Part shown: positions 1,618 through 16,756 of the stretch, piece by piece
Layout: each line of letters begins with the position of its first letter
How positions within the stretch are numbered: position 1 is the stretch's first letter
DNA from: Pseudogemmobacter bohemicus
GTDB lineage: Bacteria; Pseudomonadota; Alphaproteobacteria; Rhodobacterales; Rhodobacteraceae
DNA length: 64,000 nt
Direction: 5' to 3'
Assembly (NCBI RefSeq): GCF_003290025.1
Contig: NZ_QNHG01000003.1
Location: 646,460 to 710,459 of the forward strand
The notes under the pieces: model-generated
Database searches by the model: none
What the model saw: only the letters and a program-made list of their open reading frames with translations
Told to the model about the DNA's origin: nothing
Translations under genes and position numbers: made by a program

Positions 1618-2541
1618 TTACCCCTCGCGTTTCAGCGCCTGGGCCATGCAATGGATGCCACCGCCGGTTTTCGAGATTTCCGCCGTATCGACCACGGCCA
1701 CGTCGAATCCGCGCGCTTTCAGCTGGCCGATCAGGGTTTGCGAGGCTTTCGGCGCGATGATGCGGTCGCCGCCCAGAGACATGAAATTGCACCCGAGTGC
1801 CATCGTGTCCTGGAAGGGCACGTCGATGATCTCATGGCCCTTCGCCTTCAGCCAGTCGACGATGGCGGGCTCGGTGCAGGCGAGGCAGACGGCGGTGAGT
1901 TTCTCGGCGATCGGCACCACCATCAGGTCGATATGGACGTAATACTCGTCGATAAAGGCGAGGCGGACCTCCCAGCCTTCGGCCGCGAACCAGGACGCCA
2001 CCTGGCGCGCGCCGTCCTCATTGGTGCGGGCCCCGCCGCACCCCACGAGCAAAACGCCTTCCTCGATCACATTGAAATCGCCGCCCTCGAAAGTGCCGGC
2101 GGTCACCATGTCATAGATCGGGATGCCGAGGCTCTCGTAATGGCGGATCGCGGCATAGTTTTCGCCGCGGCGCCAGGGCTGGCTCATCGCGGTGATCACT
2201 GCGCCGTAAGGGGTCATCACCGAGCTGTCGCGGGTATAGACCTGCATCGGCAGTTCTGCCTCGGGCGGCACGGTATGGACAGTGACGCCGAAGCCCTCAT
2301 AGGCCGCTTTCAGTTCCTTATGCTGCGCCTGAGCTTCCTGGATGTTGCACGGGTTCTCGCGCAGGTGTTTCCTCGACAGGGACGAGGTCGCCATATGGCG
2401 CAGGTAAGCCGGGTCGCCCAGCAGCACATCGGTCAGCCGGTCGGTTTCATTTCGGAACCCCCAATGCGCCAGCGGGCTGGTGCCGCCGCCCTGTTTGCGG
2501 CGCTGGAGGGAAAAGGGTTCAGGCCTGGTCTGCACGTTCAT
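1618..2541 (-). CDS. Arginine deiminase/dimethylargininase-family hydrolase
   Basis: A 307-residue member of the guanidine-modifying (pentein) enzyme superfamily. These enzymes attack the guanidino carbon of arginine or methylarginine through a catalytic cysteine, giving citrulline plus ammonia or methylamine. Visible signatures are TRDSS (103-107), FEGGD (151-155), the HID catalytic histidine/aspartate pair (203-205) and GGGIHCMA with the nucleophile Cys298 near the C-terminus. The ATG at 2541 is preceded by AGGAGAGAGAA, an excellent ribosome binding site; the longer open frame upstream lacks one. It lies 14 bases downstream of an M20 amidohydrolase on the same strand, so the two are probably co-transcribed. 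The family is clear, but the exact substrate (arginine, methylarginine, or another guanidino compound) is not decided by sequence alone. Confidence 0.82.
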   Translation of the reverse strand: MNVQTRPEPFSLQRRKQGGGTSPLAHWGFRNETDRLTDVLLGDPAYLRHMATSSLSRKHLRENPCNIQEAQAQHKELKAAYEGFGVTVHTVPPEAELPMQVYTRDSSVMTPYGAVITAMSQPWRRGENYAAIRHYESLGIPIYDMVTAGTFEGGDFNVIEEGVLLVGCGGARTNEDGARQVASWFAAEGWEVRLAFIDEYYVHIDLMVVPIAEKLTAVCLACTEPAIVDWLKAKGHEIIDVPFQDTMALGCNFMSLGGDRIIAPKASQTLIGQLKARGFDVAVVDTAEISKTGGGIHCMAQALKREG

Positions 2542-2555
2542 TTCTCTCTCCTGTT

Positions 2556-4148
2556 TCAGGCGCCTTGCATGGCAGAGGGGATCCACCAGTCGCGGCCCCT
2601 TGCGGTGGTGACATATTCCGGCCAGCGGAAATGGATCGGGGGGGCGTAATCGCACAGGGGCGGGATCGGGGCGGCCTTGCTGCGGCTCTCGAACTCGGTC
2701 CACATCGCCGCCCGGGCCTCTGCGTCTTCCAGAATGCGCAGCGCCGAGAGCGCCAGAACCTCGGCGGCCTTTTGCACCATCGGGTCGATGGTCGCCGGGA
2801 TGCCGCCAAGCGCGTTCATCACCCAGGCCGGGTAAGTATACCCCGCCGGCGCATTCAGCGCGGGGCGCGCGATGTAGAAGCGCGCGGTGGGCGCATGCCA
2901 GCACATATCGGTGTAATCATCCGAGGTGGAATTCTTCTGCGAGGGCGGCAGATCCTCGCGCAGGATTTTCTCCGCCGCCTGCGGGTCGATCAGCCGGGTC
3001 ATTTCCGGGATGAAGGGCTCTGCCATCGGCGCGATGCCAAGACCCGACTGGATCTCGCGGGCGATCTCTTTCGCGTCCTGCCCCCATTCGGGGGCGCCGG
3101 CTGCCTGCATCGCGTCCCATACGACCGATGCGATGGTATGGTTCGCAAGGCCGGGGCGCGATTTGCAGACCCAGTGCCGCTCGACCCGGCAGCCGGTCAT
3201 CGCGCTCGCGTGTTCAGCATTGCGGTCCAGCGCTGCGGTGACCGCCTCGGCCATCGCGAGCGTCGGTACCCGCATCATATACTGGATCTCAGCCAGACCG
3301 GCGGGCAGGTTGTCGGCGGTGGCCTGGCCTGCGGTCAGGATCGCCTCGGAAATCGACCAGCCGCCCTGATGCGGCAGCATCGAATCGCGCAAGGATTTCG
3401 AGGTCAGGAACATCAGGTTCAGCGCGTCATTGGCACCGGGCGCGCGGACGGCGGAATGTGATTGCGGGATCGGCGCGCCATCCTGCGACAGGCTGCCCCC
3501 CCAGGCCTGCGGCTCATCGCAGATGAAACGGTAGATCATCGAGTAGGCCGCCCCGCAATGCGTGTCCCAGCGGACCGTGTTGCACATCGGCAGCATGTAA
3601 AACGGATGGAAGGACAGGATCGCGGCCAGCCCGTCATAATAGCCTTTCGCGGCATGGATCGGTTTCGAGCCGCGCACCTTTTCCGCAGGCTCGCCGGTAA
3701 AGCGCAGGCCGCCCTTGATCCCGTGCTTTTCCATCGCGGCTTTGGTCGCGAGCAGCCCCGCCAGCCCGGCAATCCCAAGGCCGGAATGCGGATCGGTATG
3801 GCCGCCGGCCTGAAAACCCAGCCCCTTTCGCGGTTCGCGCCGGGTCGAGGCCGCCTGGCAATTCCCCGGCACCGCATCATATTCGGCATACATGCCGATC
3901 ACCGGAGCGCCCTCGGATTCGGGGCCGTTCGACCAGGTGGCGCAGAAGGCGGTCGGCATGCCGGCCGATCCTTCCTCGACGGTGAACCCCTCGGCGCGCA
4001 GCCTTTCGACATACCAGGCGCAGGACTGGTATTCGCGCCAGGCGGTCTCGCCATAGGAAAAGATCGTGGCGCACCAGTCGGAATGGTCCCGGGCGCGGGC
4101 TTTGACGCTGGCAAGGGCGGTGGTCTGGGCGGCGGAAAGCTGCGACAT
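2556..4148 (-). CDS. M20-family amidohydrolase (AbgB-like)
   Basis: A 530-residue cytoplasmic metal-dependent amidohydrolase of the M20 peptidase/aminoacylase family, most like AbgB-type aminobenzoyl-glutamate hydrolases by overall pattern. Metal- and catalysis-associated segments are EYDAVPG (89-95), GGHTDPH (115-121) and TGEPAEK (151-157), then the dimerisation domain and a C-terminal catalytic portion with TSDDYTDMCW. Such enzymes cleave amide bonds in N-acyl or aryl amino acids. The start at 4148 (MSQLS) is preferred over an in-frame TTG eight codons upstream, because GGAG sits at suitable spacing before the ATG. It is the first gene of a two-gene minus-strand unit with the guanidine hydrolase, and diverges from a LysR regulator. 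Substrate specificity is inferred only from neighbours. Confidence 0.85.
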   Translation of the reverse strand: MSQLSAAQTTALASVKARARDHSDWCATIFSYGETAWREYQSCAWYVERLRAEGFTVEEGSAGMPTAFCATWSNGPESEGAPVIGMYAEYDAVPGNCQAASTRREPRKGLGFQAGGHTDPHSGLGIAGLAGLLATKAAMEKHGIKGGLRFTGEPAEKVRGSKPIHAAKGYYDGLAAILSFHPFYMLPMCNTVRWDTHCGAAYSMIYRFICDEPQAWGGSLSQDGAPIPQSHSAVRAPGANDALNLMFLTSKSLRDSMLPHQGGWSISEAILTAGQATADNLPAGLAEIQYMMRVPTLAMAEAVTAALDRNAEHASAMTGCRVERHWVCKSRPGLANHTIASVVWDAMQAAGAPEWGQDAKEIAREIQSGLGIAPMAEPFIPEMTRLIDPQAAEKILREDLPPSQKNSTSDDYTDMCWHAPTARFYIARPALNAPAGYTYPAWVMNALGGIPATIDPMVQKAAEVLALSALRILEDAEARAAMWTEFESRSKAAPIPPLCDYAPPIHFRWPEYVTTARGRDWWIPSAMQGA

Positions 4149-4355
4149 GTCCCGGGCTCCGGATCGACACAAAAGGGCGACAGGGGGCGGGCAAGGCGCC
4201 TCCCTGCCACCCTTTCAGGGCTAACAGGGCAGGCGGCTGCCCTGAAAGTGAAACCTTTTCCCGGCTTCGGCAAAGGAAATTCACCTTTTGCTTGTATGCG
4301 CCGCAGAAAGACCCAGACTGGGGCCCCGGTATGGTGCAAAGCCAGTGAGGTCCTG
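4149..4355. promoter_or_regulatory. Divergent control region with nested inverted repeats
   Basis: This 207-base gap separates the minus-strand hydrolase pair from the plus-strand LysR gene. It holds a perfect 10-base inverted repeat, CTTTCAGGGC at 4212-4221 and GCCCTGAAAG at 4239-4248. A second interrupted repeat spans 4248-4284, with arms beginning GTGAAACCTTT and ending AAAGGAAATTCAC. LysR-type regulators usually bind such dyads between divergent genes, so these are candidate operators for the adjacent regulator. No promoter hexamers could be assigned with confidence. Confidence 0.45.
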
Positions 4356-5240
4356 ATGGCCCGTATCCCCTCGACCCAGGCGCTGCGCGCGCTGGAGAGT
4401 TTTGCCCGCCACGGCACGGTCTGGCAGGCGGCGGATGAGCTGAACCTGACCCGCAGCGCGGTCAGTCACCAGTTGCGGCTTCTGGAGCGTGACCTGGGCT
4501 TTCGCCTGACAAGCCGGATTGGCACGCGGGTCGAGCTGACGCCCCAGGGCCTGGCCTATGCAACGGATATCCGCCGCGCTCTGTCGATGATTGCCGGCTC
4601 GGCGACGCGAAATGCGGCGCGCGGCGTGACGGGGACGCTGTCGGTCAGCTGCCCGCCGGGCTTTGCCTCAAGCTGGCTTTGTGGCAAGATTGGAGGATTT
4701 GTCTCGGATTTTCCAGATGTTACACTTTCCGTGCAGACGCCACGCCGGCTGGATGACGTGTCGAATCCCGATGTCGATATCTTTATCACCTTTGGCGAGG
4801 GCAAGCAGCCCGGCATGGATGTCGAGTTGTTGAAAGAGGTGGATTTCACGCCGCTTTGCAGCCCGGCCTGGCTGAACCGCTTTGAATCCATGGCCGATAC
4901 CGGCGCGCTGCTGGGGGCCACGCTCTTGCATCTGGGCGATTACGAGGATTGGGAATGCTGGTTCCGCCTGGCGGGGATGCCGGTCGAGTCGGCGCAGAAC
5001 GGCATCCGTTTTGCCGATATGAACCTGGTCTATGCGGCGGCGCTTGGCGCCCAGGGGATCGCGATGGGGGATGAATTCATCTGCCAGGATGCGATCCGCG
5101 CCGGCCATCTGGTCAGGCCCTTTGATCTTTCCGTGCGCTCTGTCCGGTCCTATTTCGTGGTCATTCCGCCGGAAAAGGCCGGCAACCCGGCTGTCGGTGC
5201 CTTTCGCGACTGGCTTCTGGGCGCGTTGATCGGTGATTGA
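4356..5240 (+). CDS. LysR-family transcriptional regulator (GcvA-like)
   Basis: A 294-residue regulator with an N-terminal winged helix-turn-helix (about residues 5-62, including the LNLTRSAVSHQLRLLE recognition region) and a C-terminal periplasmic-binding-like effector domain (about 90-290). The open frame extends far upstream, but that part is the antisense image of the amidohydrolase. ATG 4356 is the natural start because the HTH begins immediately and GTGAGG lies just upstream. The architecture matches GcvA-type LysR proteins. It is divergent from the M20/guanidine hydrolase pair and points into the ABC transporter operon, so it probably controls both units in response to their substrate; this is inference from position. 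The effector is unknown. Confidence 0.9.
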   Translation: MARIPSTQALRALESFARHGTVWQAADELNLTRSAVSHQLRLLERDLGFRLTSRIGTRVELTPQGLAYATDIRRALSMIAGSATRNAARGVTGTLSVSCPPGFASSWLCGKIGGFVSDFPDVTLSVQTPRRLDDVSNPDVDIFITFGEGKQPGMDVELLKEVDFTPLCSPAWLNRFESMADTGALLGATLLHLGDYEDWECWFRLAGMPVESAQNGIRFADMNLVYAAALGAQGIAMGDEFICQDAIRAGHLVRPFDLSVRSVRSYFVVIPPEKAGNPAVGAFRDWLLGALIGD

Positions 5241-5292
5241 CCCCTTTTTGATCGGTCCGCCAAAGATCGGCAAATATTATTTCCCGAAAGGG

Positions 5293-5316
5293 TGAAAAAC
5301 TTTCTATTGTTTTTCA
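5293..5316. promoter_or_regulatory. Inverted repeat upstream of the ABC operon
   Basis: TGAAAAAC (5293-5300) and GTTTTTCA (5309-5316) form a perfect 8-base inverted repeat with an 8-base spacer, in an unusually AT-rich patch between the LysR gene and the transporter operon. The partial dyad symmetry suits a LysR-type operator. It could also form a weak hairpin at the end of the regulator transcript. Its role is inferred. Confidence 0.4.
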
Positions 5317-5385
5317 GAGCCCCCCGTCTCAGGCTTGGATGGACAGTCTGCCCGGTCCCCGCCGCGATCTGCGGCATTGGCCGGC

Positions 5386-5445
5386 ACCCGGACCTCTGAC
5401 ATCCGGAATTCTGGCATCCGGAACTCTGGCACCGGCAACTCTGGC
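5386..5445 (+). repeat. Four tandem 15-base repeats before the ABC ATPase
   Basis: Four consecutive 15-base units occur at 5386-5400, 5401-5415, 5416-5430 and 5431-5445, each a variant of ATCCGGAACTCTGGC. The period is a multiple of three and the frame is open and continuous with the ATPase. If translation began at the upstream ATG at 5335, the units would encode a repeated IRNSG-like pentapeptide. They end 12 bases before the GTG chosen as the ATPase start. Confidence 0.75.
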
Positions 5446-5457
5446 AAGGGATACCAA

Positions 5458-6486
5458 GTGACGCAGGCAGCAGAAATCGGAGCTTCTGGGATCGGCAAGA
5501 TGTTCGGGCGCTTTACCGCGCTGCAGGATATTTCCATGACCATCGGGCGCGGCGAATTCGTCACGCTGCTGGGGCCATCCGGGTCGGGAAAGACCACCTT
5601 CCTGATGATCCTTTCGGGTTTCGAGGCGCCGACATCGGGACGGCTGACGCTGGACGGGCGCGAGATGACCGGGACGCCCCCCGAGGCGCGCGGCTTCGGC
5701 ATGGTCTTTCAGGGTTACGCGCTGTTTCCGCATATGACTGTCGAGGAAAACATCGCCTTCCCGCTGAAGGTCCAGGGCCGCTCCTCTGCGGATGTTTCGA
5801 AACGTGTCAGGGACATGGTCGAGATGGTCGGGCTGGGCGGCCATGGCCACAAACGGCCTTCGGGCCTGTCGGGCGGCCAGCAGCAGCGGGTCGCGCTGGC
5901 CCGGGCGCTGGCCTATGAGCCGCCGGTTCTGCTGCTCGACGAGCCATTTTCGGCGCTGGACAAGAACCTGCGCGGCCAGATGCAGGATGAGATGCGGCGC
6001 ATCCATCAGGAGACCGGCACCACCTTTGTCTTCGTGACCCATGACCAGGAAGAGGCACTGGCCTTGTCCTCGCGCATCGCGATTTTCGAAAAGGGCCAGT
6101 TGCAGCAGATCGCCGCCCCGCGTGAAATCTATGAGCGGCCATCCAACCGGTTCGTGGCGGAATTCCTGGGCGACATCAATATTTTGCCGGTCGCCTCCTC
6201 GCAGATCGAGGGGCGCGCGATCCGGCTGCCTGACGGTGCGGGCGATCATCTGGCGATCCGGCCTGAATATATGGACCTCTTGGTCAGCGAGCCCGCCTCT
6301 GGCAATGCGCTGCCGGTCGAGCTGAAAGATCTGACCTATCTTGGGTCTGAGACCCGCCTCGCTTTGACCACCAAAGGCGGGGTGCCGGTCGTTTTGCATA
6401 TGCCGACCGCGAAACTGCCCGACGGGCTTGTGCCGGGGGCGGCGGTCTGGACCAGCTGGGACGCCCATCGCGGTTTCATGCTGTAA
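5458..6486 (+). CDS. ABC transporter ATP-binding protein (polyamine/opine type)
   Basis: A 342-residue ATPase of a spermidine/putrescine-type importer, located on the cytoplasmic face of the membrane. It has Walker A GPSGSGKTT (39-47), Q-loop region VFQGYALFPHMT (83-94), signature LSGGQQQR (137-144), Walker B LLLDEPFSALD (158-168) and a switch histidine in VTHDQEEA. A C-terminal TOBE-like domain starts near residue 270. The GTG at 5458 was chosen because AAGGG sits just upstream and the ATPase domain begins soon after. An ATG at 5335 would add a low-complexity, repeat-encoded leader of 41 residues. It heads an operon with a binding protein, two permeases and a ThDP enzyme. Confidence 0.9.
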   Translation: MTQAAEIGASGIGKMFGRFTALQDISMTIGRGEFVTLLGPSGSGKTTFLMILSGFEAPTSGRLTLDGREMTGTPPEARGFGMVFQGYALFPHMTVEENIAFPLKVQGRSSADVSKRVRDMVEMVGLGGHGHKRPSGLSGGQQQRVALARALAYEPPVLLLDEPFSALDKNLRGQMQDEMRRIHQETGTTFVFVTHDQEEALALSSRIAIFEKGQLQQIAAPREIYERPSNRFVAEFLGDINILPVASSQIEGRAIRLPDGAGDHLAIRPEYMDLLVSEPASGNALPVELKDLTYLGSETRLALTTKGGVPVVLHMPTAKLPDGLVPGAAVWTSWDAHRGFML

Positions 6487-6559
6487 GCGAATTCCGGGAC
6501 AGACCCGCCATAAGATGCGGGCGCCGGCTGACTGAAAATCCTCAACAGGGAGATGGATT

Positions 6560-7672
6560 ATGAACGGACCCTTCCAGCGCGACCAGTTGGAAATCCTTGC
6601 GATGAAGGCCCGCAAGGGTCAGATTTCGCGGCGGAATTTCAACACCGGTCTTGCGCTTTTGCTGGGAACTTCGGCGCTTGGGCTGGGGAGCCGCGCCGAT
6701 GCCCAGACCAAAGAACTGGTGCTGGTGAACTGGGGCGGCGACGCGGGCGCGGCCTATGACACCGCCTATGGCAAGCCCTTCCTTGAGGCGACCGGCATCA
6801 CCGTGCGCCAGGACGGATCGGGCCCGACCGAGGGTGCGATCCAGGCTCAGGTCGAAAGCGGCAAACCGACCTGGGATCTGGTCGATGTCGACCCGTTCTC
6901 GGCTGAGGCGCTTGGCAAGAAAGGCATGATGGAACCCGTCGATTACGCCGTCGTCGACAAGACCAAATTCCGCGAGGGCTTTGGCTGGGACTATGCCGCC
7001 TCGACCTATTTCTTCTCGTATGTCATCGCCTATGACGCGACCAAATTCGGGGATAACCCGCCGACCGGCATGGCGGATTTCTTCGATACCGAGAAATTCC
7101 CCGGCAAGCGTGCGCTTTATAAATGGGGCGTCGGTGTCTGGGAGGCGGCTTTGCTGGCCGATGGCGTGGCGCCGGGCGATCTCTACCCACTGGATATCGA
7201 GCGGGCGCATAAGAAGCTGGCGGCGTTCAAAGAGCATGTCGTGGCCTTCTGGGGCGGCGGGTCCGAGAGCCAGTCGCTGCTTCTGGATGGTGAGGCCTCG
7301 ATGGCCATCGTCTGGTCGACCCGCGCCCGCCTGATCGAGGAAGACAGCGGCGGCGATGTGAAATTCATCTGGAAAGACGGTTTCGTCTCGCCCGGCGCGC
7401 TTGGCGTGGTCAAAGGCAATCCGGGTGGTGCGGAAACCGCGATGCAATTCCTCGCCTCGGTGCAGGATCCGGCGAAACAGCTGATCATGTTCGAGATGCT
7501 GGGCCAGGGGCCGGCAAACCCGGCGACCGATGCCTTGCTGCCGCCCGAGGACGCGAAATACAACCCGGTGGCCGCCGATAACTATGCCCAGCAAATGCCG
7601 ATCGACATGGCCTGGTACGAGACCAGCTACGGCGCCGCGCTGGATGAATATCTGAAGATCATCTCGGCCTGA
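6560..7672 (+). CDS. Periplasmic substrate-binding protein, PotD/SpuD-like, Tat-exported
   Basis: A 370-residue solute-binding protein for the adjacent ABC importer. The N-terminus is long and carries a twin-arginine motif, SRRNFNTG (about residues 23-30). A hydrophobic run LALLLGTSALGLG and a signal-peptidase-like ADAQ site near residue 49 follow, so folded export by the Tat system is likely. The mature part resembles the polyamine/opine-binding family (ELVLVNWGGD near its start, DLVDVDPFSAEAL, and a long C-terminal lobe). A ribosome binding site (AGGGAG) precedes ATG 6560. The neighbouring arginine-type hydrolase and ThDP enzyme suggest a basic guanidino or amine ligand, which is inference. 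Confidence 0.88.
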   Translation: MNGPFQRDQLEILAMKARKGQISRRNFNTGLALLLGTSALGLGSRADAQTKELVLVNWGGDAGAAYDTAYGKPFLEATGITVRQDGSGPTEGAIQAQVESGKPTWDLVDVDPFSAEALGKKGMMEPVDYAVVDKTKFREGFGWDYAASTYFFSYVIAYDATKFGDNPPTGMADFFDTEKFPGKRALYKWGVGVWEAALLADGVAPGDLYPLDIERAHKKLAAFKEHVVAFWGGGSESQSLLLDGEASMAIVWSTRARLIEEDSGGDVKFIWKDGFVSPGALGVVKGNPGGAETAMQFLASVQDPAKQLIMFEMLGQGPANPATDALLPPEDAKYNPVAADNYAQQMPIDMAWYETSYGAALDEYLKIISA

Positions 7673-7683
7673 TGGGTCCCTTG

Positions 7684-7706
7684 CCCCGGGCCAGTCCGGC
7701 CCGGGG
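7684..7706 (+). terminator. Hairpin between binding protein and permease genes
   Basis: Arms CCCCGGGCC (7684-7692) and GGCCCGGGG (7698-7706) form a perfect 9-base-pair stem with a 5-base loop. It sits 12 bases after the binding-protein stop and is followed by a good ribosome binding site (AGGAGG) for the permease. No U-tract follows, so it is more likely an mRNA-stabilising or partial-termination hairpin that keeps binding-protein mRNA in excess. Confidence 0.6.
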
Positions 7707-7727
7707 ATCGCCGCTCAGGAGGATGCC

Positions 7728-8540
7728 ATGCTCCGTTCCCGCCTGTTTTTGCTGGCCCCGCTGCTGGTCTTTCTGGCTCTGGCCTATCTTGTCCCGTTCC
7801 TCGGCGTCATGCGCTGGAGCGTGACACTGCCCGAGCCGGGCCTTGGCCAGTATAAAACCGCGCTGACCGATCCGCTGGTTCTCAGCGTGATCTGGCGCAC
7901 GGTCAGGATCTGCGCGCTGGTCACCGTTCTGGCGGTCGCCATGGCCTATATCATCACCCTTCTCTGGGTGCGGGGCGGGCCGGTGATGCGGCTGTTTGTC
8001 GAGCTCTGCATCCTGATCCCCTTCTGGATTTCCGTGCTGACACGGGCCTTTGGCTGGCTGGCGCTTTTGTCGAACCGCGGCATCATCAACACCTGGGGCC
8101 AGGAGATCGGCATCTTTTCCGAACCGCTGGCGCTGGTGCGGAACGAATTCGGCGTTGTGCTGGGGATGGTGCATTTCCTGATCCCCTTCGCGGTCTTCCC
8201 GCTGGCCTCGGCCATGCGTTCGGTCGATGAGCGCGTGCTTCTCGCCGCGCGCGGCATGGGGGCGTCCCGGGCGCGCATCTTCTGGCAGGTCTTTGTTCCC
8301 ATGACCAAAACCGGCATTTTCGGCGCCTGTCTGCTGGTCTTCGTCTTCGCGCTTGGCTTCTTCGTCACCCCCGCGATCCTCGGCGGTGGCCGCTCGGTGC
8401 TGGTGGCTGAACTCATCTGGCTGAGGATTTTCCAGAGCCCGGACTGGGGCCTTGGCGCCGCGATCTCGGTGATTATGATGGTCGCCATCGGTCTCTTGCT
8501 GGCGCTGACGATGAAATATGCCAAGGGGACCGGGCGATGA
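7728..8540 (+). CDS. ABC transporter permease (PotB-like)
   Basis: A 270-residue inner-membrane permease of the spermidine/putrescine/opine class. About six hydrophobic segments are visible, beginning LFLLAPLLVFLALAYLVPFL. The cytoplasmic EAA-like loop is present as AARGMGASRARIFWQVFVPM (about residues 181-200), the site that contacts the ATPase. ATG 7728 follows AGGAGG at ideal spacing. The stop overlaps the start of the next permease (ATGA at 8537-8540), showing translational coupling. It forms the channel heterodimer with the following gene product. Confidence 0.9.
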   Translation: MLRSRLFLLAPLLVFLALAYLVPFLGVMRWSVTLPEPGLGQYKTALTDPLVLSVIWRTVRICALVTVLAVAMAYIITLLWVRGGPVMRLFVELCILIPFWISVLTRAFGWLALLSNRGIINTWGQEIGIFSEPLALVRNEFGVVLGMVHFLIPFAVFPLASAMRSVDERVLLAARGMGASRARIFWQVFVPMTKTGIFGACLLVFVFALGFFVTPAILGGGRSVLVAELIWLRIFQSPDWGLGAAISVIMMVAIGLLLALTMKYAKGTGR

Positions 8541-9352
8541 TCACGCTGAAACCGGGCCTCCTGGCCACGATCCTTGCGGCGCTGGTCGCGGTGTTTCTGC
8601 TGATGCCGCTGATCGCGGTGGTGCCGGTCAGTTTCACGCCCGGGCGCAATCTGTCGATGGCCGGGGATGAGTGGTCGCTGCGCCATTACCGGGCGCTGAT
8701 CGACAATCCGGCCTGGGGCAAGGGCGTCTGGCTCTCGATCCGCATCGGGCTGGTCGCGAGCCTCTTTTCCACCGCGCTGGCCGCCGCTTTCGCGCTTGGG
8801 CTCTGGATGTTGCAACCGAAATTCGCCGGGCTCTATATGGGGATCGCGATGCTGCCGATGGTGGCGCCTCCGGTCGTCTCGGCCCTGACGCTCTATTTCT
8901 TTCTGACCTCGCTGAGCCAGTGGAACGGCGTGATCGGCTATGACACGTTCTTCGGCGTGGCGCTGGCGCATTCGGTTATGGTGGCGCCTTTCGCGGTGGT
9001 GCTGATCACCGTCGCGCTGAGCCAGGTTGATCGCCGCATTGACCTCGCTGCGCGCTCGATGGGGGCGGGGCTGATGACGCGGGTGTTCCGCATCATCATG
9101 CCGAATATCCGCTTCGGCATGATCGCGGCGTTGTTCCTGACCTTCGTTCTCTCCTGGGAGGAGATCGGCGTCACCCTTTTCATCACCTCGGTCAATGCGG
9201 TGACGCTGCCCCGGATGATGTGGATGGGGCTGAGGGACAATATCGACCCGGCAATCGCCGCGATTTCCGTGGTGCTGATCGCGATTGTGGTCGCGGTTGT
9301 GCTGATCAAAACGGCGGTGCAGGTTCGGCAGGGCCAGAAAAGACAGGGATGA
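8537..9352 (+). CDS. ABC transporter permease (PotC-like)
   Basis: A 271-residue second permease of the importer with about six transmembrane segments. An EAA-like loop appears as AARSMGAGLMTRVFRIIMPN (about residues 174-193). The ATG overlaps the preceding stop by four bases, and its own stop is four bases before the GTG of the ThDP enzyme, so all five plus-strand genes look like one transcript. Pairing with the previous permease to form the membrane channel follows the family's known architecture. Confidence 0.9.
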   Translation: MITLKPGLLATILAALVAVFLLMPLIAVVPVSFTPGRNLSMAGDEWSLRHYRALIDNPAWGKGVWLSIRIGLVASLFSTALAAAFALGLWMLQPKFAGLYMGIAMLPMVAPPVVSALTLYFFLTSLSQWNGVIGYDTFFGVALAHSVMVAPFAVVLITVALSQVDRRIDLAARSMGAGLMTRVFRIIMPNIRFGMIAALFLTFVLSWEEIGVTLFITSVNAVTLPRMMWMGLRDNIDPAIAAISVVLIAIVVAVVLIKTAVQVRQGQKRQG

Positions 9353-9356
9353 GGAC

Positions 9357-10961
9357 GTGACGGCTAATATTTCTACGGGGGTCTATCTGACCCATCTCTT
9401 GCGGGCTTATGGCGTCGAGGTAGTGTTCGGCATCCCCGGCGTTCATACGGTCGAGCTCTATCGGGGCCTTGCCGGATCGGGTGTGCGCCATGTGACGCCG
9501 CGCCATGAACAGGGCGCCGGCTTCATGGCCGATGGCTATGCGCGGGCCTCTGGCAAGCCGGGCGTCTGTTTCATCATCACCGGCCCGGGCATGACCAATA
9601 TCGTGACGGCCATGGGCCAGGCTTACGGCGATTCGATTCCGATGCTGGTGATCTCGACCGTGAACGCACATGGACGGATGGGCTCGGGCGAGGGCTGGCT
9701 GCATGAACTGCCCAATCAGCAGGCGCTGGTCTCGGGTGTGGCGGCGTTTTCGCGCACCGTGAACCGGCCCGAGGAACTGGCCGGGGTGCTGGCCCAGGCT
9801 TTCGCGGTGTTTTACGGCGCGCGGCCGCGCCCGGTGCATATTGAGCTCCCGATCAATGTGATGCTTGCGGATGCCGGCCATCTGCCTTTGCCGCAGCCGA
9901 TGATGCTGTCGCTGCCGGCGCCGGCGCCGGCGGCGCTGCGTGAGGCGGTGCAGGCGCTGGAGGGGGCCGCCCGGCCGGTGATCCTCGCCGGTGGCGGCGC
10001 GCAGCGGGCCGAAATCGGCAGGCTGGCCGAGCTGTTCGATGCGCCTTTGGTGATGACGACCAATGCCCGTGGCCTCTTGCCACCCGGGCATCCGCTGGCA
10101 GTGCCGCTGTCGCCCTCGATGGAGACGACCCGGGCGCTGATCGCGGGCGCCGACGTGGTTCTGGCGATCGGCACCGAACTGGGCCTGACCGATTACGATA
10201 TGAATGAGGATGGCGGTTTCTCGCTGCCCGGAAAGCTGATCCGCGTCGATCTTGATCCGGTGCATATGGCGCGGGGGGTAACGCCCTGGCTGGCGATTGC
10301 ATCGGATGCGGCAGAGTTCGTGGCGGCGGTTCTTGCCGACCCGCCCCCTGCCGCAAAGAAAGACGGCGCGGCGCGGGCCGGTGTGGCGCGGGCCGGGCGT
10401 GCCGCATTGCCCGAGGCCTACCGGCGCGATCTGGCGCTCTTGTCGCTGGTCAGGGACACGCTGCCCGGTGCGCGGCTGGTTGGCGATTCAACGCAGCTGA
10501 CCTATGCCGGCAATATGAATTACGAGGCCGAGAGCCCCGGCACCTGGTTCAACTCGGCCACCGGCTACGGCACGCTGGGCTATGGGCTGCCGGCGGCGAT
10601 TGGTGCGAAACTGGCGGATGATCGCCCGGTGGTGGCGATCTCGGGTGATGGGGGCTTGCAATTCTCGCTGTCGGAACTGGCATCCGCGACCGAGGCCGAA
10701 GTGCCGGTGATCCTGCTGCTGCATGACAATAACGGCTATGGCGAGATCAAAAGCTATATGATCGCGCGCAATATCCCGGCTTTGGGCGTCGATATCTACA
10801 CGCCCGACCTTGCAGCCATCGCCGCCGCTTCGGGCTGGCATGTCGAGCGGGTGAGCGGCGCGGCGGCGCTGCCGGATCTTTTGCGTGCGGGCGCTGCCCG
10901 CAAAGGGCCGACCATGCTGATCTTTGGCGACGAGCTGCGGGCCGAATTCCCCGCGACCTGA
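9357..10961 (+). CDS. ThDP-dependent enzyme, acetolactate synthase-like / 2-ketoarginine decarboxylase-like
   Basis: A 534-residue thiamine diphosphate enzyme with the three-domain pyruvate-oxidase/acetolactate-synthase layout. The N-terminal PYR domain carries the cofactor-activating Glu51 in RHEQGAGFMADGYAR. A central domain follows, and the C-terminal PP domain has the GDG...NN Mg/ThDP motif starting at residue 430 (GDGGLQFS, then HDNNGYGE). It is the last gene of the ABC operon and starts with GTG four bases after the permease stop. Its position beside an arginine-family hydrolase and a basic-compound importer makes 5-guanidino-2-oxopentanoate decarboxylase (AruI-type) an attractive assignment. 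This is inference; ordinary acetolactate synthase large-subunit paralogues look similar, and no small subunit is nearby. Confidence 0.75.
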   Translation: MTANISTGVYLTHLLRAYGVEVVFGIPGVHTVELYRGLAGSGVRHVTPRHEQGAGFMADGYARASGKPGVCFIITGPGMTNIVTAMGQAYGDSIPMLVISTVNAHGRMGSGEGWLHELPNQQALVSGVAAFSRTVNRPEELAGVLAQAFAVFYGARPRPVHIELPINVMLADAGHLPLPQPMMLSLPAPAPAALREAVQALEGAARPVILAGGGAQRAEIGRLAELFDAPLVMTTNARGLLPPGHPLAVPLSPSMETTRALIAGADVVLAIGTELGLTDYDMNEDGGFSLPGKLIRVDLDPVHMARGVTPWLAIASDAAEFVAAVLADPPPAAKKDGAARAGVARAGRAALPEAYRRDLALLSLVRDTLPGARLVGDSTQLTYAGNMNYEAESPGTWFNSATGYGTLGYGLPAAIGAKLADDRPVVAISGDGGLQFSLSELASATEAEVPVILLLHDNNGYGEIKSYMIARNIPALGVDIYTPDLAAIAAASGWHVERVSGAAALPDLLRAGAARKGPTMLIFGDELRAEFPAT

Positions 10962-11028: not shown

Positions 11029-12630
<1,602 letters not shown>

Positions 12631-12972
12631 ATCCGTGCCAAGCTCCGGTCGCCGCGCACCTGGCGCGGCCTTGGTTGAAACTGCGCCCGGGCCTTGGGCG
12701 CAAGGGCAAACCCTATCCGTTTGTACTGCCCTCAGGGCGCCTATAACACGCGGTCTATAGAGGAAAACAGCAACCTTTCAGGGAGTTAGCGCAACCATAC
12801 ACAGGTTAGCGCAACCAGTGGCGGCGGCTTGCCCACAGTGAGGCAATTTCGCCATGCTGCCACAATTTCGCAGGGCTTTCCCCCGCCGGAACGGGTGGGT
12901 GATTCGTTTCCTGTTGATTCCGGGGCGCGCTTTGGGGATTATATCCTGATAAGAAACAGAGCAGGATACATT
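12631..12972. promoter_or_regulatory. pckA-chvI divergent control region with two sets of direct repeats
   Basis: This 342-base non-coding region separates pckA from chvI. GTTAGCGCAACCA occurs at 12785-12797 and again at 12805-12817, a 20-base period that puts both copies on one DNA face. Each is one base short of the palindrome GGTTAGCGCTAACC, the style of LacI-family sites. Nearer chvI, CAATTTCGC occurs at 12844-12852 and 12863-12871 (19-base period), typical of OmpR-family tandem sites. A TATAGA -10-like element for pckA (minus strand) lies at 12755-12760. The regulators are inferred. Confidence 0.5.
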
Positions 12973-13674
12973 ATGTCGCGCATCGCCCTGGTGGACGACG
13001 ACAGGAACATTCTGACGTCCGTCTCGATGACCCTCGAAGCCGAGGGGTTTGAAGTCGAAACCTATACTGACGGCCAGTCGGCCCTGGACGCATTTAATCG
13101 CCGCATGCCCGACATGGCGGTTCTTGATATCAAGATGCCCCGCATGGACGGGATGGATCTCTTGCAGCGCCTGCGGCAGAAGACCGCGATGCCGGTGATC
13201 TTCCTTACCTCGAAGGATGACGAGATCGACGAGGTGCTGGGGCTGCGGATGGGGGCCGACGATTACGTCAAAAAGCCCTTCTCGCAGCGGCTGCTGGTCG
13301 AACGCATCCGGGCGCTTTTGCGCCGTCAGGATGCGGGCGTCGCCTCGGATGCACCGGTCTCGGAAGAGAATAAGGTGATCGAGCGCGGTGAGCTCCGGAT
13401 GGATCCCTTGCGGCATGCGGTCAGCTGGAAGGGTCGCGACGTCTCGCTGACCGTGACCGAGTTCCTGCTGCTCCAGGCGCTGGCGCAGCGTCCGGGTTTC
13501 GTGAAGTCGCGCGATCAGCTGATGGACGTGGCTTACGACGATCAGGTCTATGTCGATGACCGCACCATCGACAGCCATATCAAGCGGTTGCGTAAGAAGA
13601 TGCGCTCGGTTGATGAAGAGTTCTCGGCCATCGAAACGCTTTACGGCATCGGTTATCGCTACAACGAAGAATGA
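12973..13674 (+). CDS. chvI: Response regulator ChvI
   Basis: A 233-residue OmpR-family response regulator. The receiver domain has acidic residues in ALVDDD (5-10), phospho-acceptor Asp52 in [11 protein letters not shown] and Lys101 in DDYVKKPF. The C-terminal winged-helix DNA-binding domain ends in [16 protein letters not shown] and [13 protein letters not shown] 12973 follows CAGGA; the longer open frame upstream runs through the control repeats. The gene overlaps chvG by four bases. ChvG-ChvI is the conserved alphaproteobacterial envelope/acid stress system, and CAATTTCGC repeats just upstream may be autoregulatory sites. Confidence 0.95.
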
Positions 13675-15368
13675 CAGCCTCGCCGCGCCTTGGTTCTGAC
13701 AACCGCAACCCCCGCCCCGGCACCCGTCGGCGCGGGGGGCAGGTCCTTTTGGGCGAGGACTGGGTCTCGCCCGACAGCATCCCCGATGATCAGCGCGAGG
13801 CCCGCCCGATTGGCGGCCTTGTGGCGCTGAACCGCAGCCCTCTGGCGCGAAAGATCATCATTTTCAACCTGATGGCGCTGATCATCCTGGTGGCGGGGGT
13901 GCTGTTCCTGAATCCGTTCCGCGACAGCCTGGTGGTCAGCCGCGAGGCCGGTCTCGTGCGCGAGGCGCGGCTGATTTCGGGCGTGTTCGGGGCCAGTCAG
14001 GCCAACCCGGATGCGCCCTATGATTACTCCACCGCGCTTGGCCGGGTCGATCTGGCGCCGGGCGTGGTTGCCTTTGTCTTTGACCCCCAGGGCAGCATTC
14101 TCGCCACCCGTACCGGGCCGGACAGCAATCTGGTCAGTGGGCGCCCGACGGTGATCACCGATTTCCTGAACTCGGTCTGGGACGGGGTTTCGGTGGTGCT
14201 TTCGCTGGGTCGCACCCGGCTTGAGGGCGAAGACAGCGCCACGCTGGCGCGCAAACTGTTGCCTGCGGCGATGGCGGGGCAAACGGCCTCTTCGACCGGG
14301 CTTGGTGTCGAGGGCGGCAAGGTGTTTTCGGTCGCCACGCCGGTTGCGGTGGCGGGCGAGTTGCGTTCGGTCCTCGTGCTGACCTCGGCGGCGGGTGAGA
14401 TCGACCGCCTGGTGCGATACGAGCGGGAACAGGTGCTGCAGGTCTTTATCGTGGCGCTGCTGGTGTCCATCGGCCTGTCGCTGGTGCTGGCCTCGACCAT
14501 CGCCAATCCGCTTTCCGATCTGGCGGCGGCGGCCGAGATCGGGCGCGGCTCGGATGGTGGCAAGGTCTCGCCCGGCCGCGTGCGGATTCCGGATCTCGCG
14601 GCGCGTCCCGATGAGATCGGGCGGCTTTCGGTCGCGATGCGCGGCATGGTGGCGGCGCTTTACGACCGCATTGATGCCAATGAACAATTTGCCGCCGATG
14701 TGGCGCATGAGATCAAGAACCCGCTGGCCTCGCTGCGCTCGGCAGTCGGCTCGCTGCGCTTTGTCAAAAAAGAAGAGCATCGCGAGAAGCTGCTGGATGT
14801 GATCGAGCATGATGTGCGGCGGCTCGACCGGCTGGTGAGTGACATTTCCAATGCCTCGCGGCTGGATTCGGAACTGGTCAAGGAAGAGGAGGAGGAGTTC
14901 GACCTCGTCCAGACCCTGACCAATCTGACGCAATATCTGGGCGATCAGGCGGCGGAAAAAGGTGTCGATTTCCTGACCGATCTGCCGCAGGGCAAGATTG
15001 TGGTCCGCGGGCTTGAGGCGCGGCTGGCCCAGGTCTTTGTCAACCTGATCACCAATGCGATTTCCTTTTGCGAGCAAAGCGATGCGGTGCGGGTCTGGGC
15101 GCGTCAGCGGGAGAACCGTGTGCTGATCGTGGTCGAGGATACCGGCCCCGGCATCCCGGAACAGGCGCTGACCAAAGTGTTCAAACGCTTTTACTCCGAC
15201 CGTCCGGAAACCCATTTCGGCAATAATTCCGGCCTCGGCCTGTCTATCTCGAAACAGATCGTCGAGGCGCATGGCGGCGTGATCTGGGCCGAAAACATCC
15301 GCCACCCGAATGCCGATCCGAATTCGGAACCGCTGGGGGCGCGTTTCGTGGTCGGCCTGCCGGTGTGA
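13671..15368 (+). CDS. chvG: Sensor histidine kinase ChvG
   Basis: A 565-residue inner-membrane kinase. A cytoplasmic leader of about 60 residues precedes the first membrane segment ([19 protein letters not shown]). A periplasmic sensing domain, a second membrane segment near residue 260 ([17 protein letters not shown]) and a HAMP linker follow. Next come the phospho-acceptor histidine region ([13 protein letters not shown]) and a HATPase domain with N-box [15 protein letters not shown] and GLGLSIS. It overlaps chvI (ATGA) and is followed without a gap by hprK. ChvG phosphorylates ChvI. The order chvI-chvG-hprK is a known alphaproteobacterial arrangement linking envelope sensing to PTS control. 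Confidence 0.95.
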
Positions 15369-15814
15369 TGACGGTTGTGACGATGGCTGTGAAGGCGGCG
15401 CAGATCCTGCATGCCAGTTCGGTTGCGATCGCGGGCAGAGGGCTTTTGATCCTTGGCCCTGCCGGGTCGGGGAAATCCTCACTGGCGCTGAAACTGATGG
15501 CTTATGGCGCGCGGCTGGTCTCGGATGACCGCACGGCGCTGACCGATACCGGCACGGGGGTCGAGATTTCCTGCCCGGCGGATGCGATTCGCGGGCTGAT
15601 CGAGGCGCGGGGCATCGGCATCCTGCGGGTAGAGCCCTCGGGCCCGGTGCCGCTGGCGCTGGTGGTCGATCTGGGCGAGACCGAGACCAGGCGAGTGCCG
15701 CCGCTGCGCCACACCAGTTTACCTGGATATGAACTGCCGCTTGTGCTGCGGTCGCAAAATCCCCATCTTGCCGAAGGATTGCTCGCCCTGATGACGGGCG
15801 CGCGGCAGGAGTGA
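15368..15814 (+). CDS. hprK: HPr kinase/phosphorylase (short alphaproteobacterial form)
   Basis: A 148-residue protein equivalent to the C-terminal catalytic domain of HPr kinase, lacking the N-terminal domain of Firmicutes enzymes; this short form is usual in alphaproteobacteria. The P-loop GPAGSGKS (30-37) is clear, followed by DDRTAL and a region corresponding to the HPr-K/P signature (IEARGIGILRVEP). The enzyme phosphorylates and dephosphorylates HPr on a regulatory serine. The start overlaps the chvG stop; a GTG one codon upstream is also possible. It is translationally linked to chvG and four bases from rapZ. Confidence 0.92.
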   Translation: MTVVTMAVKAAQILHASSVAIAGRGLLILGPAGSGKSSLALKLMAYGARLVSDDRTALTDTGTGVEISCPADAIRGLIEARGIGILRVEPSGPVPLALVVDLGETETRRVPPLRHTSLPGYELPLVLRSQNPHLAEGLLALMTGARQE

Positions 15815-15817
15815 GCC

Positions 15818-16756
15818 ATGGATGCCTCTTCGGCGGCCTGTTCCGGGGGTGATGCGCCCCGGGAATTCAGACTGGTCCTTGTGACCGGCCCGTCGGGTGC
15901 CGGGCGGACCACGGCGATCCGTGTGCTGGAAGATATCGGCTATGAGACCATCGACAATATCCCGCTCAGCCTGATCCCGCGACTTCTGGAGGGAACGCCT
16001 CCCGACCGTCCCATCGCGCTTGGCCTTGATGTGCGCAATCGCGACTTCAATGCCACCGCGCTGATCGAGCTGATCGACACCATGATGCGCGCGCCCGAGG
16101 TCTCGCTGATGGTGCTCTATCTGGATTGCGCCACGCCCGAACTGATCCGCCGCTATTCCGAGACCCGCCGTCGCCACCCGCTGGCCACGGATGAGACCCC
16201 GGCCGAAGGCATCGCACGCGAATTTGACCTGCTGGCCCCGATCCGGGTCAGGGCCGATCTGCTGATCGACACCACCGAATTGTCGCCCCATGATCTGAAA
16301 GCCGAGATCAAACGCTGGTTCGAGCCGGATAAATCCGGCCGCCTCGCCGTCTCGCTGCAAAGTTTCAGCTACCGGCGCGGGCTGCCGCGCGGGGTGGATA
16401 TGGTGTTCGACTGCCGCTTTCTGAAAAACCCGCACTGGAACCCCGCCTTGCGCGCGCTGGACGGGCGCGACCACGACGTGCAGTCGTTTCTGGCGCAGGA
16501 TCCGAATTTTGCACCTTTCCTTGACCGGGTGCGTGATCTGACGGAATTTCTGCTTCCGGCCCAGGTCGATGAGGGCAAGGCGCATCTTGCAATCGGCTTT
16601 GGCTGCACCGGCGGCCAGCACAGATCGGTTGCTATGGTGGAATTGATGGGCAGTGCCCTTGCGCAGGCCGGCTGGCCAGTGTCAAAACGGCACAGGGAAC
16701 TGGAACGCAAGGCCGGCGAAATGCCTGGCCCAGCTGACAAGGTGTCGGTGGTTTGA
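15818..16756 (+). CDS. rapZ: RapZ-family nucleotide-binding RNase adapter
   Basis: A 312-residue RapZ (YvcJ) protein. The Walker A loop reads GPSGAGRTT (24-32) with arginine where many homologues have lysine; to my knowledge alphaproteobacterial RapZ proteins often have this. The conserved GYETIDNIP and the C-terminal [13 protein letters not shown] motif are present. In enterobacteria RapZ controls glucosamine-6-phosphate synthase by guiding a small RNA to RNase E; whether that applies here is unknown. Its neighbours are hprK and PTS genes, as in other proteobacteria. The stop overlaps the next gene's TTG start. Confidence 0.93.

Follow-up and report, generated by a model that had tools for sequence, protein, structure and literature searches.

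A conserved gene cluster of Pseudogemmobacter bohemicus that may import and degrade a guanidino acid

What compound might be handled by the eight genes that surround and include a LysR-family regulator in the genome of Pseudogemmobacter bohemicus, and do these genes form one system? The genes occupy positions 1618-10961 of a 64,000-nucleotide stretch (assembly GCF_003290025.1, contig NZ_QNHG01000003.1, positions 646,460 to 710,459), which we call the window and in which all positions below are counted. A first-pass annotation had proposed a cluster for uptake and breakdown of a guanidino compound, formed by seven genes around the regulator (i.e., eight genes when LysR is counted). We re-read all eight from the DNA and scanned them against Pfam and NCBIfam; gene coordinates and motifs came out as first described. 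Our analyses support the proposed class of system, i.e., a regulon devoted to taking up and breaking down a guanidino acid, and they fix this class better than the compound: a guanidino acid is a fairly likely substrate class, while the exact substrate and the step catalyzed by the M20-type amidohydrolase of the cluster (M20) can be put forward only tentatively. The reading that we tentatively prefer is that of a self-contained regulon, probably under LysR control, that would import and degrade a guanidino acid without a free alpha-amine, probably in the form of an amide conjugate.

We analyzed the conservation of the cluster in a scan of named genomes with an alignment of 14 M20 proteins, which yielded at least 560 confirmed relatives; the loci studied are the best 80 of these, a set biased to close kin. 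Genes were counted by tblastn and scored as present within about 10 kb of the M20 gene, and as some loci stop at contig ends, the counts are lower bounds. A core of seven genes, i.e., the four importer genes, LysR, M20 and the ADI/DDAH-type hydrolase (HYD), was complete in 62 of the 80 loci, mainly in Rhodobacterales and Hyphomicrobiales, which indicates that the cluster is not a chance grouping. Individually, HYD was present in 68 loci, LysR in 64 and each importer gene in 63, and HYD started no more than 200 bp downstream of M20 in 66. Gene order was identical in Rhodobacterales and Hyphomicrobiales, some of the loci being on annotated plasmids (Roseovarius, Phyllobacterium and Pararhizobium). 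The synteny by which the first-pass annotation proposed to check the cluster thus held for the core genes, but not for the gene of the thiamine diphosphate (ThDP)-dependent enzyme, which was found in only 22 of the 62 core loci and is accessory.

Co-occurrence was assessed among 292 genomes of the order, with HYD counted at 50% identity or more. M20 was present in 22 genomes and HYD in 14; HYD was found in 12 of the 22 genomes with M20 as compared to 2 of the 270 others (P = 9e-14, Fisher's exact test, kinship uncorrected). The two genes lie side by side in six of these 12 genomes (P. bohemicus itself, G255, G191, G211, G108 and G037) and at distant places in the other six (G130, G074, G251, G017, G224 and G170). 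Stand-alone M20 genes occur in an rpoD-dnaG-ribD neighborhood (G074, G251 and G170), and HYD adjoins pheST in G074 and G251, dapF in G017 and G224, and a binding-protein-like gene in G170.

A 46-bp operator-like element (consensus from 43 sites: GGTGAA-N5-TTTGCC-N8-GAAAA-N2-TTTCA) precedes each arm of the cluster, at 4244-4289 on the minus strand towards M20-HYD and at 5265-5310 on the plus strand towards the importer-ThDP operon. The initial motif search in the intergenic gaps forces one site per gap; the control was a leave-relatives-out test, in which every gap had its own matrix, built only from sites with less than 75% likeness, and 20 dinucleotide shuffles. With these matrices, all 63 LysR-M20 gaps outscored all 20 of their own shuffles, and every site was oriented to M20. 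When the LysR-ATPase gaps were scored with a matrix from the M20 gaps, 60 of 60 ranked above 99% of 600 dinucleotide shuffles and 54 above all of them; the orientation was towards the ATPase gene in 59 of 60. Simple patterns of the element matched only 13 of 63 and 11 of 60 gaps and were too strict. The 5.6-Mb genome of P. bohemicus was searched with a profile of the 43 sites (150 of 1108 first-look candidates scored), which gave E-values below 1 only for the two cluster sites (1.6e-9 towards M20-HYD and 4.9e-7 towards the importer), the next value being 1.01. Ten relatives were also searched: the five with the cluster in one place each have two strong sites, at the cluster, and the other five, in which M20 and HYD lie apart, have no site below an E-value of 0.1. 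Because the profile includes the sites of the window and probably named counterparts of some searched genomes, the E-values at the cluster cannot be taken as independent, and it is the absence of sites elsewhere that counts. A shared element before both arms, with no other site below an E-value of 1 in the genome, suggests that the arms are probably co-regulated, as the first-pass annotation would expect of a single pathway. The element is presumably bound by the regulator itself (4356-5240, plus strand, divergent from M20-HYD; Pfam HTH_1 and LysR_substrate), a GcvA-like protein whose best NCBIfam model was GcvA (246 bits as compared to a cut-off of 288).

The substrate class is indicated by HYD (1618-2541, minus strand; 307 aa), a Cys hydrolase of the guanidino-group modifying superfamily that scored over the Pfam cut-offs of ADI and DDAH_eukar but reached the cut-off of none of the NCBIfam models listed for it. 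Its profile and fold matches were NnhA, dimethylarginine dimethylaminohydrolase (DDAH), ArgZ and arginine deiminase, and its closest PDB sequence match was a DDAH entry (3rhy). Residues were counted in 73 distinct HYD proteins (identity of at least 45%), with columns taken from a sequence alignment to DDAH. C298, H203, E152, D105, D205, R124, R125 and R172 were invariant in all 73, and Cys298 and His203-x-Asp205 bear out the cysteine and HID pair first noticed. The column of the amine-binding Asp (DDAH Asp60) holds Met in 71 proteins and Tyr in two. Two positions after the catalytic His, where DDAH has Lys, all 73 have Asp205, as does arginine deiminase. The excerpt of PMC11659421 describes this pocket Asp as stabilizing the guanidine in arginine deiminase and the Lys in DDAH as accommodating methyl groups; a second Asp grips the other side of the guanidine, Arg residues bind the carboxylate and an Asp binds the amine. 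As the guanidine-binding Asps and carboxylate-binding Args are kept and the amine-binding Asp is gone, the pocket of HYD would suit an unsubstituted guanidine and a carboxylate with no free amine at the usual place. This favors as substrate a guanidino acid that has no free alpha-amine and speaks against the methylarginine that the first-pass annotation had also considered.

Asp105 of HYD aligns with ArgZ Asn71 (the column is marked by an N71S entry), a residue that we take to give the dihydrolase reaction, so HYD is more likely a deiminase than a dihydrolase. An ArgZ-type dihydrolase was rejected on this residue and on a score of 59.5 bits against a cut-off of 450, and DDAH was rejected on Asp205 and on equivalog scores of 88.6, 82.2 and 67.1 bits against cut-offs of 300, 340 and 450. 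The arginine deiminase model TIGR01078 was not reached either (39.4 bits; cut-off 489.1). Public records label HYD as a member of the dimethylarginine dimethylaminohydrolase family; the residue and context evidence contradicts this naming and says that HYD, a predicted guanidino-acid deiminase, would be neither DDAH nor an ordinary arginine deiminase. In agreement with a deiminase, hydantoinase/carbamoylase-type amidases are encoded downstream of HYD homologues of 38-50% identity in L139 and L142, of the 80% orthologue in L066 and, by similarity only, in L194, as would be expected if the HYD product were a ureido acid. In L139 and L194, the HYD homologue and the carbamoylase-type gene stand in one run with an importer and genes of the arginase family (two by annotation in L139 and one by scan in L194), perhaps another guanidino-acid cluster.

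The M20 gene (2556-4148, minus strand; 530 aa) lies 14 bp upstream of HYD. Its product reached no Pfam model at 0.001 and remained below every NCBIfam cut-off listed for it (TIGR01891, 92.7 bits; cut-off 153.75). D119, H121, E156 and H181 were invariant among 94 distinct homologues, and in all 94 of these large M20 proteins Lys157 stands in place of the second Glu of the PAEE motif (Glu156-Lys157, in GEPAEK). That Glu is a metal ligand of the dinuclear metallohydrolases of the M20 family; a one-metal site or a modified lysine is possible. The top fold matches of the M20 model were HmrA and human PM20D2 (15-17% identity), with hydantoinase/carbamoylases in 35th place and lower. The likeness to PM20D2 favors an amide or dipeptide-like bond, so that amide cleavage by M20 is our guess from the predicted fold. 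Carbamoylase-type genes near large M20 genes in L066, L034 and L035 argue against M20 being a ureidase. In L034 and L035 (Shinella and Kozakia), M20 relatives of 49-50% identity also stand with polysaccharide-deacetylase-type (allantoinase-like) and class II aldolase-like genes, a setting that could hint at a related pathway for a cyclic ureide or a guanidine. L035 and L056 have a distinct ADI-type protein beside M20. In L122 and its relative L137, an Amidohydro_3 protein was observed near M20, in the company of a CobW protein and a DctM-type transporter gene; in L181, such a protein lies near a HYD homologue.

The importer consists of a PotA-like ATP-binding cassette (ABC) ATPase (5458-6486; Pfam ABC_tran and TOBE_2), a solute-binding protein of the twin-arginine translocation (Tat) type (6560-7672; SBP_bac_8) and two permeases, PotB-like (7728-8540) and PotC-like (8537-9352), both with Pfam BPD_transp_1; all are on the plus strand, the permease genes overlap by 4 bp, and 4 bp separate the second from the ThDP gene. 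All four genes of the PotABCD-type importer named in the first-pass annotation are thus present, but the equivalog cut-offs of the spermidine/putrescine importer were missed (PotA 327 of 482 bits, PotB 148 of 348, PotC 85 of 326). For the ATPase, none of the 25 NCBIfam models shown (of 188) was reached at its cut-off, and the permeases likewise fell short of those shown for them. The binding protein carries the twin-arginine motif behind the Tat signal first reported, as do 68 of 71 distinct homologues, and by sequence it is closest to solved binders of 4-aminobutyrate (GABA), agropine and mannopine (including Atu4243 = 4eq7). Its R255 was invariant in the 71 distinct homologues, and Gly279 occupied the column of Atu4243 Asp226 in 71 of 71. 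We presume that in Atu4243 an Arg binds the carboxylate and Asp226 the amine. These roles were not found in passages of PMC12999171. According to PMC11113362, GABA and 5-aminovalerate are bound by PA4985, whose gene lies beside those of the regulators of the arginine transaminase pathway; it is likened to the binding protein here by description.

The ThDP gene (9357-10961, plus strand) belongs by score to the family of 5-guanidino-2-oxopentanoate decarboxylases (NF005712, 715.9 bits; cut-off 500), and the public record names its product a ketoarginine decarboxylase. Among the family names first given, that of the ThDP enzyme therefore passes an NCBIfam cut-off, while HYD and M20 do not reach any model listed. 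Acetolactate synthase was rejected for this enzyme (TIGR00118, 252 bits against 538), which shares 26% identity with the organism's own acetolactate synthase and is set apart from it in the tree by a very long branch, in agreement with the first-pass assignment. In a tree of 40 proteins (L141 and L223 of 15 extra loci gave no row), the main-cluster enzymes formed one clade of 24 rows with support of 100/99, inside which fell three enzymes of a single genus that stand alone; another type from Phyllobacterium (48-50%) lay outside it, and the enzymes of Pseudomonas aeruginosa, Caballeronia and Roseateles had no settled place.

Genes found near ThDP relatives agree with a sequence of hydroxyacid to oxoacid to aldehyde to acid. 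The stand-alone ThDP genes of the main-cluster clade, in G017, G220 and G267, have a molybdenum-hydroxylase-like set nearby (the large-subunit-like gene was scanned in L185 only and the two partner genes were judged by size), which would be expected for an aldehyde product. A P. aeruginosa record has a ThDP gene (57%) with a GlcD-type gene after it (46% to those of the clusters) and a speB-type gene four genes before it on the same strand; we take this run to be the guanidinobutyrase locus. Arthrobacter L033 has, in one run, a D-2-hydroxyacid-dehydrogenase-like gene, ThDP (37%), M20 and a semialdehyde-dehydrogenase-like gene. Near the clusters of relatives, the accessory flavoenzymes are of the GlcD and LldD types, families known to act on hydroxyacids rather than amines, and a 2-hydroxyacid-type flavoenzyme is a possible substitute for the transaminase that the eight genes lack. 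With identity floors of 45% for ThDP, 35% for GlcD type, 50% for LldD type and 45% for aldehyde dehydrogenase, a GlcD-type flavin adenine dinucleotide oxidase was present in 31 of the 62 core loci (no more than 300 bp from an end of the cluster in 20 of these loci and no more than 2 kb in 28) and occurred together with ThDP in 17; an LldD-type flavin mononucleotide enzyme was present in 11 (ten of them with ThDP) and an aldehyde dehydrogenase gene in four.

From the observed gene content, kept gene order, shared 46-bp element and invariant catalytic residues, we infer the following steps. A conjugate would be taken up by the Tat-type binding protein and the ABC importer, and M20 would cut its amide bond, releasing most likely argininic acid (2-hydroxy-5-guanidinovalerate) or an acid of the 4-guanidinobutyrate type. 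HYD would then deiminate the guanidine via a Cys298 intermediate to give ammonia and a ureido acid. Where there is a hydroxyl, flavoenzymes of the GlcD or LldD type, which occur in the clusters of relatives and not in this window, could oxidize it to give the 2-oxoacid, and the ThDP enzyme would decarboxylate this 2-oxoacid to a four-carbon aldehyde on the way to GABA. Conjugates of argininic acid would explain the largest number of parts, i.e., the HYD pocket without an amine site, the flavoenzymes of 2-hydroxyacid type and the ketoarginine-type decarboxylase. Extended to an undescribed pathway for deaminated arginine, with import, an M20 with altered metal site, HYD as a des-amino arginine deiminase, GlcD/LldD oxidation, ThDP decarboxylation, aldehyde oxidation and decarbamoylation to GABA, widespread among Alphaproteobacteria and with half of it common to the ThDP-GlcD-speB run of P. 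aeruginosa, this proposal becomes speculative, and we consider it unlikely in that full form.

Several observations weigh against the import and breakdown of a conjugated guanidino acid. M20 is far from solved enzymes, and its model has a mean predicted local distance difference test score (pLDDT) of 71.5 and TM-scores of at most 0.46 by query length. The window has no GlcD-type or LldD-type gene; the nearest homologues in the genome are at 42% (with one internal TGA) and 36% for the GlcD type and at no more than 35% for the LldD type. Neither ThDP nor a GlcD-type gene was found in 26 of the 62 core loci, so oxidation and decarboxylation may be peripheral. In Psychrobacter L141, the ThDP gene (51%) lies amid a BCCT transporter gene and genes of coenzyme A-linked enzymes, and the ThDP family may thus be wider than guanidino compounds. 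HYD was not found at an E-value of 1e-50 in 10 of the 22 genomes of the order with M20. The argument from the binding protein (Arg kept, amine-binding Asp replaced by Gly) leans on presumed roles in Atu4243, and, as the loci are kin by descent, the residue and motif counts are not independent.

In a rival explanation close to that of the first-pass annotation, an imported N-acyl-arginine could be converted by HYD to N-acyl-citrulline, or M20 could first free the arginine, with the ThDP enzyme using ketoarginine from a transaminase encoded elsewhere. N-acyl amino acids are frequent substrates of M20 enzymes, the lack of the amine-binding Asp in HYD would be compatible with a blocked amine, HYD is closely linked to M20, and aminotransferases are annotated near the M20 relative in L034 and near the HYD homologue in L140. 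However, the Pfam scan found no aminotransferase domain in the eight cluster genes, in agreement with the first-pass annotation (the search did not extend to other genes of the genome or to unannotated neighbors), and the 2-hydroxyacid-type flavoenzymes of relatives fit a deaminated arginine better; we regard N-acyl-arginine as a doubtful substrate. Alternatively, the guanidino acid could be imported as such, converted by HYD to a ureido acid and decarbamoylated by M20 as a ureidase, so that the two enzymes together would take the place of guanidinobutyrase or another ureohydrolase. The linkage and co-occurrence of M20 and HYD, the carbamoylase-type amidases after HYD homologues in L139, L142 and L194 (no large M20 appeared in the stretches read there) and the speB-type gene in the P. 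aeruginosa run would all fit. This is set against the carbamoylase-type genes that accompany large M20 genes in three loci, where one of the two would be redundant, and against the ranking of HmrA and PM20D2 far above the hydantoinase/carbamoylases, and we judge a ureidase role to be rather improbable.

The stand-alone genes suggest still another explanation, i.e., that M20 and HYD are a metabolite-repair pair that clears a faulty side product, to which an importer was added in some lineages. PM20D2 is a repair enzyme, stand-alone M20 genes lie in the rpoD-dnaG-ribD neighborhood (with clusters in L044-L053), and HYD proteins of 54-56% are encoded beside pheST or dapF in G074, G251, G017 and G224; against these, the main lineage has a dedicated importer, a regulator and the 46-bp element, all of which point to a nutrient, and we consider a repair role very unlikely. 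Catabolism of methylarginine by a true dimethylargininase has in its favor the public annotation of HYD and the match to 3rhy, but the scores of HYD for the DDAH equivalogs (67-89 bits, where the cut-offs are 300-450), the Asp at the DDAH Lys position and the absence of an evident role for M20 and ThDP leave it with almost no probability. Lactoyl-arginine, suggested by the lactate-dehydrogenase-like flavoenzymes, was set aside as unlikely, since a ThDP gene accompanies those flavoenzymes.

Beyond the cluster, the adjoining part of the window (11029-16756) holds phosphoenolpyruvate carboxykinase-, ChvI/ChvG two-component- and HprK/RapZ-like genes, named by recognition only. Elsewhere in the genome, contig C5 carries identical 4113-base stretches with an arginine deiminase gene at three places (L002, L003 and L004) approx. 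95 and 121 kb apart, either a recent triplication or an assembly effect, and a further, different arginine deiminase gene lies on contig C8.

If a guanidino acid is indeed the substrate, a cluster common among marine, soil and plant-associated bacteria is the sign of an as yet unnamed nitrogen source, for the identification of which the binding protein would be a direct handle; the flavoenzymes of relatives would offer a possible transaminase-free route to ketoarginine. We found no description of the combination or the pathway in open-licence papers, a set outside which most subscription journals fall, and the excerpt of PMC7268258, on arginine transamination in nitrogen-fixing bacteroids, contains no account of it.

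Compared to known systems, the cluster is closest in its ThDP enzyme to the arginine transaminase/dehydrogenase pathway of Pseudomonas, which includes the ketoarginine decarboxylase AruI and guanidinobutyrase: the enzyme is in the same NCBIfam family, and its P. aeruginosa counterpart is encoded beside a GlcD-type gene. In contrast to that pathway, the eight genes include neither transaminase nor ureohydrolase and have HYD, M20 and their own importer and regulator instead. HYD shares the Cys-His-Glu triad, both guanidine-binding Asps and the carboxylate-binding Arg with arginine deiminase ArcA, from which it differs by its length of 307 aa, its low score (39 bits against 489) and the missing amine-binding Asp; it shares length and overall fold with DDAH, but has Asp for the methyl-accommodating Lys and likewise no amine-binding Asp; and it belongs to the same superfamily as the arginine dihydrolases ArgZ/AgrE, with Asp105 in the Asn71 column and a score far below their cut-off. 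M20 has its nearest solved folds in HmrA and PM20D2 (a beta-alanyl-lysine dipeptidase), but is about 130 residues longer and has PAEK for PAEE, and the binding protein, a sequence relative of the GABA and opine binders, has Gly279 where we presume the amine-binding Asp of Atu4243 to be. All parts of the cluster come from known superfamilies, in a combination that the open-licence papers searched did not describe.

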